Under the pieces are notes generated by a model, which did no database searches, had not been told where the DNA came from, and saw nothing but the letters and a program-made list of their open reading frames with translations. Shown one piece after another: positions 16,841-20,544 of a DNA stretch of 64,000 bases (the stretch's first letter is position 1; the number at the start of each line of letters is the position of its first letter). The stretch is taken from positions 124,001 to 188,000 of the forward strand of contig NZ_JAQFVF010000088.1 of assembly GCF_027789125.1 (NCBI RefSeq), in the 5' to 3' direction. Origin of the DNA: Paenibacillus aestuarii. Its GTDB lineage: Bacteria > Bacillota > Bacilli > Paenibacillales > NBRC-103111. The position numbers and the translations under genes were made by a program.

Positions 16841-17940
16841 TGAACAGACAGGCGCTTAAGGAACAGCCCGGCGCGCCAGAGAAGGCAAAGAAAGGCCGCA
16901 AGGAGCGGATCTTCGAGTATCTTTTTGGCGCAGGACTTTTTACGCTCATTATTGTATACTTGCTGCTGTGTTTCTTTGTGACGGACTGGCTCTATACCCG
17001 CATAGGGAAACGGCCGGATGAGGTTTATGTACAGCTGATCAACTCTGTAGGCTCGATGTTTCTCTGGGGCTTTACGATGGCGCTTCTCGGGAAATATTAT
17101 TTCCGCAACAAGCAGATGGAGTTTTTTCGCACAATGGTTGATGCTGTGCGCCGCATGTCCCGAGGGGATTTCAACGTGTCCGTAGAGCGGGATCCGCGTA
17201 ACGGTCCGTTTGTTGAGCTTGTGGACAGCATTAATGACATGGCGGTCGAGCTGGGACAGCTGGAGCAGATGCGGCAGGAGTTCATCTCGAACGTGTCGCA
17301 CGAGATCCAATCGCCGCTCACGTCGATCAGCGGTTTTTCCCGTGCGTTAAAGAATGACAATCTCGGGGAGGAAGAGCGCAAGCATTACCTCGATATCATT
17401 GAAGCCGAGAGCAAGCGTTTGTCGAAACTAAGCGATAACTTGCTGAAGCTGTCTTCGCTGGAGTCGCAGCACCATCCCTTTGAGTTGAAAAGCGTACGGC
17501 TGGATAAACAGCTGCGCAACCACATTCTAGCCTGTGAGCCGCAATGGGTGGACAAAGATATCGAAATGGATATCGACATGGTTCCCATCACGATTATGGC
17601 GGATGAGGAATTGTTGAGCCAGGTATGGACCAATATCATCCATAACGCAATTAAGTTTACGCCTGTCGGCGGCACGATTGGTGTCTACGTAACGGGCGGC
17701 ACCGGAGAAGCGGTCGTCCGCATCACGGATAATGGCATCGGAATTTCCGCGGACGATCAGGCGCATATTTTTGAACGCTTCTACAAAGCGGATAAATCGA
17801 GAAACCGGGCGTTGGGCGGTAGCGGGCTGGGACTCTCCATTGTCAAAAAAATCATCGACATGCATCAGGGATCCGTCTCCGTCTCCAGCCAAATTGGCGA
17901 AGGCACGACCTTTACGGTTCGCCTGCCTGCTGCTGAATAA
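16840..17940 (+). CDS. Sensor histidine kinase partner of the OmpR-type regulator
   Basis: About 366 residues. Start is GTG 16837 or ATG 16840, both overlapping the regulator's stop. Two membrane helices (about 28-50 and 70-88) flank a very short external loop (RIGKRPDEVYVQ), so it probably senses within or near the membrane. HAMP-like linker RMSRGDFNVSVE, HisKA with H154 in SNVSHEIQSPLTSI, then N, G1 and G2 boxes (NIIHNAIKFTP, DNGIGIS, GSGLGLSIV). The Q in SHEIQSP replaces the more usual R. Signal unknown. Confidence 0.93.
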   Translation: MNRQALKEQPGAPEKAKKGRKERIFEYLFGAGLFTLIIVYLLLCFFVTDWLYTRIGKRPDEVYVQLINSVGSMFLWGFTMALLGKYYFRNKQMEFFRTMVDAVRRMSRGDFNVSVERDPRNGPFVELVDSINDMAVELGQLEQMRQEFISNVSHEIQSPLTSISGFSRALKNDNLGEEERKHYLDIIEAESKRLSKLSDNLLKLSSLESQHHPFELKSVRLDKQLRNHILACEPQWVDKDIEMDIDMVPITIMADEELLSQVWTNIIHNAIKFTPVGGTIGVYVTGGTGEAVVRITDNGIGISADDQAHIFERFYKADKSRNRALGGSGLGLSIVKKIIDMHQGSVSVSSQIGEGTTFTVRLPAAE

Positions 17941-17944
17941 TGTC

Positions 17945-17973
17945 TGCGCGCATCGCGTCGCGGGCATTTTTTT
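17945..17973 (+). terminator. Terminator of the two-component operon
   Basis: TGCGCGC (17945-17951) pairs with GCGGGCA (17960-17966) with one mismatch, followed by seven T residues. Confidence 0.6.
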
Positions 17974-17974
17974 A

Positions 17975-18020
17975 TAATAAAATAGGGACCCCGCTTATCC
18001 AAGATAACCGGAATCCCTAT
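17975..18020 (-). terminator. Minus-strand terminator of the mini-ORF unit
   Basis: ATAGGGA (17982-17988) pairs with TCCCTAT (18014-18020) with further inner pairing GCTTATC/GATAA. Read on the minus strand it is followed by TTTTATTAT, while the plus-strand side is A-rich, so it serves a minus-strand transcript. Confidence 0.72.
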
Positions 18021-18036
18021 AAAAATCGGATTTTAT

Positions 18037-18099
18037 TCAATTGTGACCAAACACACTCCCATCAACACAACTTCCGTTGCAAAATAGTGGCCTTTCCAT
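18037..18099 (-). CDS. Mini-ORF d, 20 residues
   Basis: ATG at 18099 with GAAAGG four bases upstream; stop TGA at 18037-18039, just before the terminator. The peptide begins MERPLFCNGSC and has two cysteines. It is the last of four short frames in one apparent transcript. No family is recognised. Coding status rests only on start, ribosome binding site and arrangement. Confidence 0.42.
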   Translation of the reverse strand: MERPLFCNGSCVDGSVFGHN

Positions 18100-18110
18100 G
18101 TGTCCTTTCT

Positions 18111-18173
18111 TCAGAGTAGGTCATGACGTCTGCTGTTACCTATGATCCCGCATGCCCGTAATCGTGAATTCAT
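18111..18173 (-). CDS. Mini-ORF c, 20 residues
   Basis: ATG at 18173 is preceded by GAGGAGAGAGG with five bases of spacing, the best ribosome binding site of the four. The peptide begins MNSRLRACGIIG, is basic (four Arg) and ends in a double leucine. Stop at 18111-18113 is 11 bases before mini-ORF d. No family recognised. Confidence 0.48.
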   Translation of the reverse strand: MNSRLRACGIIGNSRRHDLL

Positions 18174-18187
18174 GAACACCTCTCTCC

Positions 18188-18232
18188 TCAAGTATTAGGG
18201 TATAGAGGGCATGCTTCGCTAACGTGCTTCAT
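18188..18232 (-). CDS. Mini-ORF b, 14 residues
   Basis: ATG at 18232, eight bases after GAGGGG; begins MKHVSEACPL. The TGA at 18188-18190 abuts the ribosome binding site of mini-ORF c, so coupling is possible. Confidence 0.38.
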   Translation of the reverse strand: MKHVSEACPLYPNT

Positions 18233-18249
18233 TGGACTATCCCCTCTCC

Positions 18250-18285
18250 TTATGCTCGAAAGATCGTGGCTCCCGGACGCCTCAT
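18250..18285 (-). CDS. Mini-ORF a, 11 residues
   Basis: ATG at 18285 directly abuts AGGAGGG, so spacing is too short for a standard site; begins MRRPGATIF. Its TAA overlaps the purine-rich site of mini-ORF b. It is the weakest of the four. Confidence 0.25.
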   Translation of the reverse strand: MRRPGATIFRA

Positions 18286-18325
18286 CCCTCCTGGTCAGTA
18301 GGTTCGGCAGGGGAGCTTGTGATTA

Positions 18326-18354
18326 AATATATACCATTATTAAAATATTGTAAA
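18326..18354 (-). promoter_or_regulatory. Minus-strand sigmaA promoter of the mini-ORF unit
   Basis: TTTACA (18349-18354) and TATATT (18326-18331) on the minus strand are exactly 17 bases apart. The predicted start near 18319 gives a transcript of about 340 nt to the terminator. No longer gene lies on that strand here. Confidence 0.62.
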
Positions 18355-18449
18355 TATTCAGATTATTTAATTTTTAACCGATAATAACCTCATTATGAGC
18401 CTATTCTTCGATTTGCTCTCTCTTTCATATTTTACAAGTTTTCGAGCTA

Positions 18450-18477
18450 TCGACAAATAGCGGGACTATTATATAAT
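18450..18477 (+). promoter_or_regulatory. SigmaA promoter of the MHYT-GGDEF-EAL gene
   Basis: TCGACA (18450-18455) and a consensus TATAAT (18472-18477) are 16 bases apart, about 45 bases before the GTG start. Confidence 0.62.
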
Positions 18478-18522: not shown

Positions 18523-20544
18523 GTGCAAATGCAAGGTCATTTCAACGGGTGGATCGTTCTATTATCTTTCGTCATTGCCGTGCTAGCTTCATATTCGGCA
18601 TTAAACCTGGTCAGCAAAATTGCCCGAACCAAAGGACGAAACCGCACGGTTTGGCTTCTGTCAGGTTCTATGGTCATGGGCGTTGGCGTATGGTCCATGC
18701 ATTTTGTCGGGATGATGGCCTATCATATGGATGTCGAGATAAACTACGATGTTCCCATCACTATTTTATCCTCTCTGGGCAGCATATTAGCTTCATACGT
18801 CGCTTTTCGAATTACGGCAAGAAGCCAATCCAGTGCCTGGAGGTATGGCTTCGGCGGCTTTATTATGGGCTGCGGTATTGTTGCCATGCACTACACGGGC
18901 ATGTATGCGATGCACGAATCGGTTGTGGTAAACTATGACATTCCCATCTGGCTAGCATCGGCGGGCGTCGCTTTGATCGCTTCATATGCCGCTCTATACT
19001 TGTTCCATAGATTCCGTCATACGCCGGATTTCAGTATTTGGAAGCTCGGCTGCGCCGTTGTTATGGCCATCGCCATCTGCGGCATGCATTATACGGGAAT
19101 GGCTGCAGCGCAATTTAGCCACCTGAGTAGTATGCAGCATACGATGCCAGGCGGTCAGGCGCCTCAGATCTTCCTATTGACAGGCGTCGCCTTGTCGACC
19201 TTCTTTATCTTGGCTGTTTCATGGGGAGCGATCTTCTTCGACCGGCACGTGCTGGAGAAAATGGCCTATTACGATCAGTTGACCGGCCTTCCCAACCGTC
19301 ACGATCTGCAGCGCTATTTCAGCGAACATTTCGATCCTGTGAAAGGTGGAGCGCTGATGTTCATCGATTTGGACAGGTTCAAAACGATTAACGATACGCT
19401 CGGACACGACTTTGGGGACATGCTGCTGCAGCAGGTAGCCGAACGGCTCCGTACGTGCCTCAAAGGCAAGGATACGCTCTTCCGATTGGGCGGTGACGAG
19501 TTCCTTATCATCACCAAACTGACCGATTTGGAGCAGATTGAACTACTGGCGCAAAACGTTTTAAACGAAATTAAGCAGGCGTATTTCATAGAGGTTCACG
19601 AGCTATATGTGACAGGCAGCGTCGGCATCAGCTTGGCGCCGCTGCACGGGGATATCCGCTCGGATTTGCTCAAAGCTGCAGACACGGCTATGTATAATGC
19701 CAAGAGTGCAGGCAAGAATCGTTACCTGATCTTTGATGAGGAAATGAATCGCGCCCAATTGCGGAAGCTTGTATTAGAGAAGGATCTGCGCAAAGCGATG
19801 GTTCACGATGAATTCAAAATCATGTACCAGCCGAAGTGGGATACCGGCTCTAACCAACTTGTCGGCATGGAGGCTTTGCTCCGGTGGCATCATCCGCAGC
19901 TCGGACCGGTGTCTCCAGCAGAGTTCATTCCGATCGCCGAGGAGACAGGGATCATTGTACCGATGACCCGGTGGATGGTCAAAGAGGTCTGTATCCAAAA
20001 CAAGAAATGGCAGGATCGCAATGAAATGCAAGTGTGCATTTCGGTGAATATGTCCGTTCGCGTTTTCGAAAGTGAGACTTTGTTTGAAATGGTCTTTGAA
20101 GCTCTGCGAGACTCAGGCTTGAATGGAACTTACCTCGAGCTTGAGATTACAGAGTCAATCGCAATGAGCGATGTTCAAGGCACAATTGAGCAATTGCAAA
20201 CGATTCGTGAACTTGGCGTCAGAGTGTCGCTCGACGATTTTGGAACGGGCTATTCCTCGCTGGGCAGCTTGGATGAGCTGCCGGTGGATACGTTAAAGAT
20301 CGATCAGATTTTCATTCATAAAAGCGAGCAGATCTCGAAGCAAGCGATCATCAGCAACATCATCGCCATTGCCAAGAACTTGAACCTTGGCGTTGTGGCG
20401 GAGGGCGTAGAGACTTCGGACCAGATCGAATTTCTCCAGTCACGCGGTTGTCATGTGATGCAAGGCTTCTATTACGGCAAGCCGATGTCGGCGTTTGACG
20501 TCAGCTACTGGCTGGAGCATAAGCAGAAGGATGCGCTGGCGTAA
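18523..20544 (+). CDS. MHYT-GGDEF-EAL cyclic-di-GMP enzyme
   Basis: 673 residues from GTG at 18523 (CAGGGGGCG upstream). The N-terminal ~235 residues form the MHYT membrane sensor: seven helices with repeated metal-binding motifs MHFVGMMAY, MHYTGMYAMH and MHYTGMAAAQ. Next is GGDEF (near 322-326 in RLGGDEFLII), intact for diguanylate cyclase activity, and an EAL domain (EALLRWHHP near 449, with ITES, DDFGTGYSSL and GVVAEGVET), intact for phosphodiesterase. It probably adjusts cyclic-di-GMP in response to a gas or redox ligand, affecting motility or biofilm. Domain order resembles Bacillus YkoW. It is a single gene, divergent from the mini-ORF unit. Confidence 0.95.
   Translation: MQMQGHFNGWIVLLSFVIAVLASYSALNLVSKIARTKGRNRTVWLLSGSMVMGVGVWSMHFVGMMAYHMDVEINYDVPITILSSLGSILASYVAFRITARSQSSAWRYGFGGFIMGCGIVAMHYTGMYAMHESVVVNYDIPIWLASAGVALIASYAALYLFHRFRHTPDFSIWKLGCAVVMAIAICGMHYTGMAAAQFSHLSSMQHTMPGGQAPQIFLLTGVALSTFFILAVSWGAIFFDRHVLEKMAYYDQLTGLPNRHDLQRYFSEHFDPVKGGALMFIDLDRFKTINDTLGHDFGDMLLQQVAERLRTCLKGKDTLFRLGGDEFLIITKLTDLEQIELLAQNVLNEIKQAYFIEVHELYVTGSVGISLAPLHGDIRSDLLKAADTAMYNAKSAGKNRYLIFDEEMNRAQLRKLVLEKDLRKAMVHDEFKIMYQPKWDTGSNQLVGMEALLRWHHPQLGPVSPAEFIPIAEETGIIVPMTRWMVKEVCIQNKKWQDRNEMQVCISVNMSVRVFESETLFEMVFEALRDSGLNGTYLELEITESIAMSDVQGTIEQLQTIRELGVRVSLDDFGTGYSSLGSLDELPVDTLKIDQIFIHKSEQISKQAIISNIIAIAKNLNLGVVAEGVETSDQIEFLQSRGCHVMQGFYYGKPMSAFDVSYWLEHKQKDALA

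Follow-up and report, generated by a model that had tools for sequence, protein, structure and literature searches.

The window analysed here, a stretch of 64,000 nucleotides from Paenibacillus aestuarii, holds a small minus-strand transcription unit divergent from a gene named by eye as MHYT-GGDEF-EAL (18523-20544). An earlier note on this DNA described the unit as a promoter, four successive ATG frames of 11, 14, 20 and 20 codons and a terminator, and offered three readings: very small peptides, a leader-type regulatory RNA, or a structured RNA whose frames are incidental. The question raised by the locus is which of its parts are conserved and what kind of product they point to.

The minus strand of positions 17850-18450 was used as a BLAST query. 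Every other same-genus genome searched (24/24) gave a match to the RNA locus; among other members of the order 1/15 did, and that match was short and weak. Four blocks, TCTGAATATTTACAA, GGGGATAGYCCA, AATTGAATA and CCGGTTATC, occur in the same order and at similar spacing in 25/25 genomes, window included. The promoter described earlier is present: the -35 element TTTACA (18354-18349, minus) lies inside TCTGAATATTTACAA, which is identical in 25/25 aligned same-genus genomes, and the -10 element TATATT (18331-18326, minus) lies 17 nt from it. Both the -35 block and the 3' hairpin were found in 24/24 relatives. The predicted RNA is about 340 nt long (17983..18319, minus), with its 5' end placed from the -10 element and its 3' end from the terminal hairpin TAGGGATTCCGGTTATC-TTG-GATAAGCGGGGTCCCTA (17983..18019, minus), a conserved, covarying structure at the place of the proposed terminator. 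By its sequence this appears to be an independent transcription unit, as had been proposed.

Alignment of the relatives, a check suggested with the original description, returned a conserved unit, three lost starts and one kept frame that had been overlooked. All four ATG frames are present in the window, with gaps of 17, 14 and 11 nt, but only the start of the 14-codon frame is conserved. In the column of the alignment that holds its start codon, the 11-codon frame (18285-18250, minus) has lost the start in 23 of the 24 relatives, and the first and second 20-codon frames (18173-18111 and 18099-18037, minus) have each lost theirs in all 24; the clue once seen in cysteine residues rested on these non-conserved frames. 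The 14-codon frame (ATG, MKHVSEACPLYPNT, 18188..18232, minus) begins at the same place in 24/24 relatives (ATG 16, TTG 8); its length ranges from 11 to 67 codons, so that start is kept while length and peptide are not. The overlooked frame is TTG-AAT-x5-TAG (18040-18017, minus), with TTG and exactly seven codons in 24/24 relatives. In the window this 3' mini-ORF is TTGAATAAAATCCGATTTTTATAG (MNKIRFL), and its stop lies at the base of the terminal hairpin. Its residues vary among relatives (LNTIIDP, LNTMNEP, LNRQNDS, LNMYSEM and others), which argues against a peptide product, since residues drift while start, length and stop hold. With its anchors conserved and the starts of three frames lost, the locus is an RNA gene kept across the genus, and of the four frames first named all but the 14-codon one are incidental. 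Sequence comparison thus confirms the transcription unit but not these three frames. Of what had been offered, conserved RNA structure and conserved very small frames are supported, and the particular set of four frames is not.

To follow the RNA beyond the genus, covariance models were built from 20 sequences for a module around the 14-codon start (R1) and from 25 sequences for the 3' part (R2), together with a wider model (R3), and searched with strict filters. R1 matches 74/104 genomes of the window's family and, in an order-wide sample that includes the window's own genome, 142/296. In 37/40 further loci R2 follows R1 downstream on its strand at E <=0.5, and in 28/40 it does so at E <=0.01. 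In a sample of the class, R1 matches 18/398 genomes and R3 matches 22/398, three of the 22 weakly. Five of 299 genomes match in a sample of the phylum: three from the window's order, one from other Bacilli and one weak. Genomes G520 and G527 of the class sample and G843 of the phylum sample are among the weak matches. A pattern scan of named genomes gave, among the matches listed, records of Paenibacillus, Cohnella, Saccharibacillus, Fictibacillus, Rossellomorea, Metabacillus, Peribacillus and Aneurinibacillus. The module model matches the named Cohnella, Saccharibacillus, Fictibacillus and Rossellomorea loci; it does not match two records of unrelated phyla among the matches listed from the pattern scan. 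At least 80 named loci were tabulated and 60 used; 18 of the 20 left out appear to be genomes already sampled, the others being L109 and L175, and some of the 60 are also genomes of other sets. Throughout, rows represent related species and counts are not independent events. Sequence duplicates were left out of the module, terminal-frame and promoter counts. That the RNA family is real is virtually certain.

The family has no counterpart in the collections searched. Rfam 15 gave 0 matches for the window at the gathering cut-off, and for the RNA region at E <=5 the one match was unrelated, weak and on the plus strand. Twelve related loci searched at E <=0.1 returned only a SAM riboswitch elsewhere in L065 (3942-4087, plus), near the RNA in a relative's 2.5-Mb genome. 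A known Rfam family was rejected for want of a covariance-model match to the RNA or the 12 related loci. The core pattern has no exact match in viral contigs, and L054, taken to represent a different family within the order, has no match in plasmids; a mobile-element origin was rejected on these two negatives. Resemblances to kink-turns and to tmRNA were considered and dropped. No description of the RNA was found among the matches listed from open-licence full texts, and Paenibacillus is absent from the main text of four surveys of noncoding RNA (PMC11109978, PMC8632094, PMC2864571, PMC6429828). The earlier statement that no described system has this design stands as far as Rfam and this literature go. 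RNA-seq of P. riograndensis gave 27 small RNAs among intergenic transcripts, of which three are named in the part of the report consulted (PMC5670726); the present RNA could be among the remainder.

Each module joins a strong predicted ribosome-binding site to a core, a covarying stem and, almost always, an ATG, TTG or GTG start. In the window, the Shine-Dalgarno-like AAGGAGAGGGG (18241..18251, minus) is predicted to form the anti-SD duplex, the conserved core GTTAGCGAAGCAT (18211..18223, minus) was recognized by sequence comparison, and stem P1 with the region it encloses spans 18150..18214 (minus), GCATGCC (18214-18208) pairing with GGCATGC (18156-18150). Modules are often tandem. Among 155 non-redundant loci, 97 have one copy, 41 two, five three and 12 four, giving tandem copies in 58/155. 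The first module has a 2-codon frame in 45/58 of the non-redundant multi-copy loci. Some arrays show recurring orders of frame length, such as 2-9-8-2 and 2-8-2-8 (L054-L058, L251 and similar loci). The same-genus locus L022 (2322-2573, minus) carries a tandem duplication of the module with a period of 138 nt, both copies starting with TTG. In L241 and L150, CCACCA or CCACAA replaces CCANTG, so that the second module of the tandem pair has no start; these are possibly decaying copies.

Covariation supports the structure of both the module stem and the terminal hairpin. In P1, 98.6% of 805 cells are paired (116 sequences), the pairing is destroyed by shifting the partner by one column, and double changes number 111 vs 35.2 +/- 8.8 in shuffles; the alignment was fitted to a model that already held P1. 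The number of P1 pairs with a double change and the number of pair types do not go beyond shuffles (136 and 138 of 500). Within the genus, 81.7% and 88.0% of the cells of the inner stems are paired. The three stems together have 29 double changes vs 11.0 +/- 3.8 when shuffled, with no excess of further pair types over shuffles. In the terminal hairpin, 98.1% of 419 cells are paired (25 sequences) and there are 14 double changes vs 4.4 +/- 3.0. The whole predicted RNA of the window folds no better than shuffles (z -0.82), so the case for structure rests on covariation rather than energy.

The module start was taken as the codon that lies 12 or 13 bases upstream of the core, in modules from BLAST and model matches; one match without an anchor was left out. 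The pattern-found set was kept out of these counts because the pattern fixes the start letter to A, G or T; it was included in the terminal-ORF and promoter counts. ATG is present in 122 of the 169 non-redundant modules, TTG in 44, GTG in one and CTG in none. A change of T to C is commonly a frequent one, yet CTG is absent. Two of the 169 lack NTG at this position, and one of these two has an ATG at a different spacing; a third start-less module lies in the biased, pattern-found set. The predicted anti-SD duplex reaches -8 kcal/mol or better at 167/167 module starts, and at 48% in shuffles. Codon 3 is a stop in 66/167 modules (TAG 54, TAA 9, TGA 3). Frames end within nine codons in 114/167, but the same is true of frame 2 (114/167; frame 1, 37), because the core often holds a TAG out of frame. 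Module stops were therefore set aside as proof of translation. As a candidate translated frame, the module mini-ORF has a conserved start and Shine-Dalgarno, and a stop no more frequent than in frame 2. AGCGAA in the core is kept with or without a preceding stop, which suggests an element of the RNA rather than a motif of a peptide.

The 3' frame also points to translation. Automatic detection missed the hairpin altogether in 9 loci and picked a wrong one in some others, window included; the window's terminal ORF was established from the same-genus alignment. NTGAAY lies 12-36 nt upstream of 117/149 automatically found hairpins, and its first letter is T in 97, G in 15, A in 5 and C in 0. The first in-frame stop falls near the hairpin base in 102/117 of these anchors, compared with 40/117 for frame 2; frame 1 is closed by construction. 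The remaining 15 frames end short of the hairpin, with a stop after 2 codons in 14. The frame is exactly seven codons long in 68/117 and eight in 23. Under a broader start rule 123/149 hairpins carry a terminal frame, compared with 7.1% when the preceding 33 nt are shuffled, and at least some of the 26/149 without one are wrongly chosen hairpins. Three further families, with MTEEEII, MEDEIV and MLEELIR, have unrelated residues, and in each the frame ends where a strong hairpin begins. The terminal ORF thus appears, by comparison, to have a conserved start codon, Shine-Dalgarno and in-frame stop. Positions 3-7 are not conserved across lineages, and pN/pS over these codons is 0.55 (114 dependent pairs), which suggests peptide constraint that is weak at most; neither a conserved peptide nor the clear purifying selection expected of a small-peptide gene was found. 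The placement of the stop implies no special mechanism by itself, since work on Bacillus subtilis, as far as the source was consulted, describes stops close to intrinsic terminators as ordinary where RNA polymerase outruns ribosomes (PMC7858274). A stop near the terminator fits the ordinary last ORF of a messenger.

The promoter suggests how the RNA may be controlled. The block at -35 is a near-palindrome, and AATAATCTGAATATT (18353..18367, minus), which overlaps the -35 region, has 3 mismatches to the 15-bp CodY consensus AATTTTCWGAAAATT; in the part of the source consulted, motifs with 3-5 mismatches lie under measured CodY binding sites (PMC4608796). A CodY box at <=3 mismatches was found in 102/154 upstream regions, where dinucleotide shuffles gave an expectation of 7.4. 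Thirty-two of the 154 promoters have >=5 mismatches, including 13/14 loci of one genus group. The best match has >=4 mismatches in 22/23 loci of genus group g10 and in 14/14 of g37, and these groups (23 and 14 loci) seem to carry another promoter block in place of the CodY-like box. The CodY helix-turn-helix domain scored above cut-off in 20/20 genomes searched. The window's own genome has 52 sites at <=2 mismatches vs 13 for the reversed pattern. Fifteen of its CodY-like sites were inspected: four lie inside ORFs, two precede ORFs named by eye as an amino-acid-binding lipoprotein-like protein and an M20-like hydrolase, and the rest lie before unrelated ORFs or none. TCTGAATATTTACAATATTTTAATAA has a single place in this genome at <=3 mismatches. 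Both sequence marks of a CodY regulon member, the 15-bp motif at the promoter and CodY itself, are present, and control of the RNA by CodY is rather probable on this basis.

The RNA has no constant partner gene. A response-regulator/histidine-kinase pair is convergent to the RNA in 24/24 same-genus relatives. Among 40 further loci it is found at high identity in one, L077, which is itself of the same genus and also has the MHYT gene. The MHYT-GGDEF-EAL gene, divergent in the window as first described, is beside the RNA in just 1/24 relatives; among the loci compared, the window, L029 and L077 are the only ones with this neighbour, and a link to the cyclic-di-GMP gene was rejected for this reason. 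Of the 148 loci with a downstream ORF of >=90 aa, 99 have the closest such ORF on the opposite strand, which speaks against the leader-type RNA envisaged before. The locus has the Shine-Dalgarno and short ORF of a cis-acting minigene leader, with no constant downstream gene. It likewise lacks the marks of a ribosome-mediated uORF attenuator, as codons 3-7 are variable and neighbours vary.

Comparison of the loci establishes an RNA with its own putative promoter and terminator, often with tandem modules, with covarying stems and with conserved starts, ribosome-binding sites and terminal stop, but no conserved peptide. Selection seems to hold the starts, the ribosome-binding sites, the terminal stop and the stems but not the peptides, and this is best explained if ribosomes land on the RNA and their presence there is its function. 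We tentatively favor a nutrient-controlled, ribosome-loaded, free-standing structured messenger-like RNA, possibly a ribosome sink. Initiation by ribosomes at the conserved starts is very probable on the comparative evidence; that ribosome loading is the point of the RNA is possible, and is put forward with reserve. In this mechanism CodY would repress the unit in rich medium, and a drop in branched-chain amino acids or GTP would allow the RNA to be made. Each module would present a strong ribosome-binding site and a start codon, usually with a frame of 2-9 codons, just before the conserved core and stem, and the last frame, of about seven codons, would end on the terminator. Ribosomes would initiate at the module and terminal starts, so that several initiating or quickly terminating ribosomes may sit on one RNA. 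The loaded ribosome and its position would matter, and the peptide would not. Loaded ribosomes might keep the structured core active and protected from nucleases, or the ribosomes themselves might be held, making the RNA a sink for ribosomes or initiation during starvation.

The main rival, which we consider unlikely, is that this structured RNA regulates through base pairing, for instance as a RosA-like sponge, in which GGGGAUAG and GYGGGAA bind C-rich small RNAs and the Shine-Dalgarno and starts mimic an mRNA and are untranslated. RosA of Bacillus subtilis is a precedent: in the part of the source consulted it is described as a stand-alone RNA, under repression by CcpA, that has G-rich regions and binds both RoxS and FsrA (PMC8216469). 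The present modules offer G-runs as well, with GGGAA after P1 in 129/167 non-redundant modules and GGG in 163/167. However, the module GGGG becomes GGAG or GGCG outside part of the family while Shine-Dalgarno strength holds, and starts that are A, T or G but never C, with the in-frame stop of the seven-codon terminal frame, point to translation. A search for the RoxS homologue RsaE gave 0/30 relatives above cut-off (sub-threshold, E <=1, in 12/30), and a RoxS/RsaE sponge is unsupported for that reason.

The stop at the hairpin base in most loci with a terminator found also invites a ribosome-gated terminator, in which translation of the seven codons would bring a ribosome onto the terminator arm and set the proportion of full-length to read-through RNA. 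This is improbable: the codons to be sensed are not conserved, no downstream gene is constant, and such spacing is usual where transcription outruns ribosomes, according to the part of the Bacillus subtilis work consulted (PMC7858274). Nearly constant length of the terminal frame and a pN/pS that hints at weak constraint would suit a peptide gene whose products are species-specific heptapeptides (MN-x5), MxxVSEA[CY] peptides or both, but codons 3-7 differ across lineages and the VSEA codons are alike even in the 66/167 modules in which codon 3 is a stop and they cannot be translated. Seven residues are also too short for an export signal, and we regard a peptide gene as more doubtful still. 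A leader or attenuator of a neighbouring gene, already disfavored, is very improbable; uORF leaders of similar style are known, as described in the parts of the sources consulted (PMC11109978, PMC8632094), but the next ORF is usually on the opposite strand and the regulator-kinase neighbour is kept in 24/24 same-genus loci and in 1/40 others, itself same-genus.

A ribosome-loaded RNA of this kind shares features with several known systems. SR1/SR1P is a dual-function RNA, and SR1 encodes a defined small protein. The present RNA would likewise be both regulatory and translated, but its frames have no conserved product. Two-codon minigenes lie in the mRNA leaders of axe-txe and EHEC LEE1, where a translating ribosome was proposed to protect the RNA, and for a six-codon mini-ORF elsewhere ribosome binding alone sufficed, in the part of the source consulted (PMC8708949). 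These leaders share the Shine-Dalgarno and ATG-NNN-stop with the present RNA, but as described there (PMC8708949) they act in cis on a downstream gene, whereas the present RNA is free-standing, structured and often tandem and has no main gene. RosA and RsaI are also stand-alone RNAs of a few hundred nucleotides with a metabolic repressor at the promoter and purine-rich segments. Module repeats and conserved start/stop frames are not described for them in the part of the source consulted (PMC8216469), and in the present family the module G-runs are not conserved and RsaE is not over cut-off in the 30 relatives searched. The ilvB and fthC motif uORF attenuators combine a Shine-Dalgarno, a short frame and a terminator hairpin in one RNA, as far as the source was consulted (PMC11109978). 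They precede a fixed gene, and ilvB uses regulatory codons; neither is true here.

The present RNA may represent a new kind, though we offer this as speculation: a starvation-induced messenger without a gene, whose tandem initiation modules capture several ribosomes per molecule, which serves as a sink or as a sensor of ribosome or initiation supply, and in which the length and position of mini-ORFs, not their peptides, are selected. The RNA gene itself is conserved in about half of the order genomes sampled (142/296) and has no match in the Rfam copy searched. If ribosomes load on it as its anatomy suggests, its translation would be the way this free-standing RNA acts, with no conserved product, and it would form a direct link between starvation signalling by CodY and translation initiation. 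The locus also cautions that frames from start to stop which pass for noise can be what is conserved.

Two smaller features were seen along the RNA. In the same-genus loci L016, L020, L022 and L030 an extra Shine-Dalgarno-like AGGAAAGGA is followed by a GTG frame in mid-RNA, with seven codons (V-R-D-L-S-Y-G) in L016, L020 and L022 and five in L030. In the window, the GC-rich hairpin and T run of the histidine-kinase gene (17944-17974, plus, -10.6 kcal/mol) lie back to back with the terminal hairpin of the RNA.
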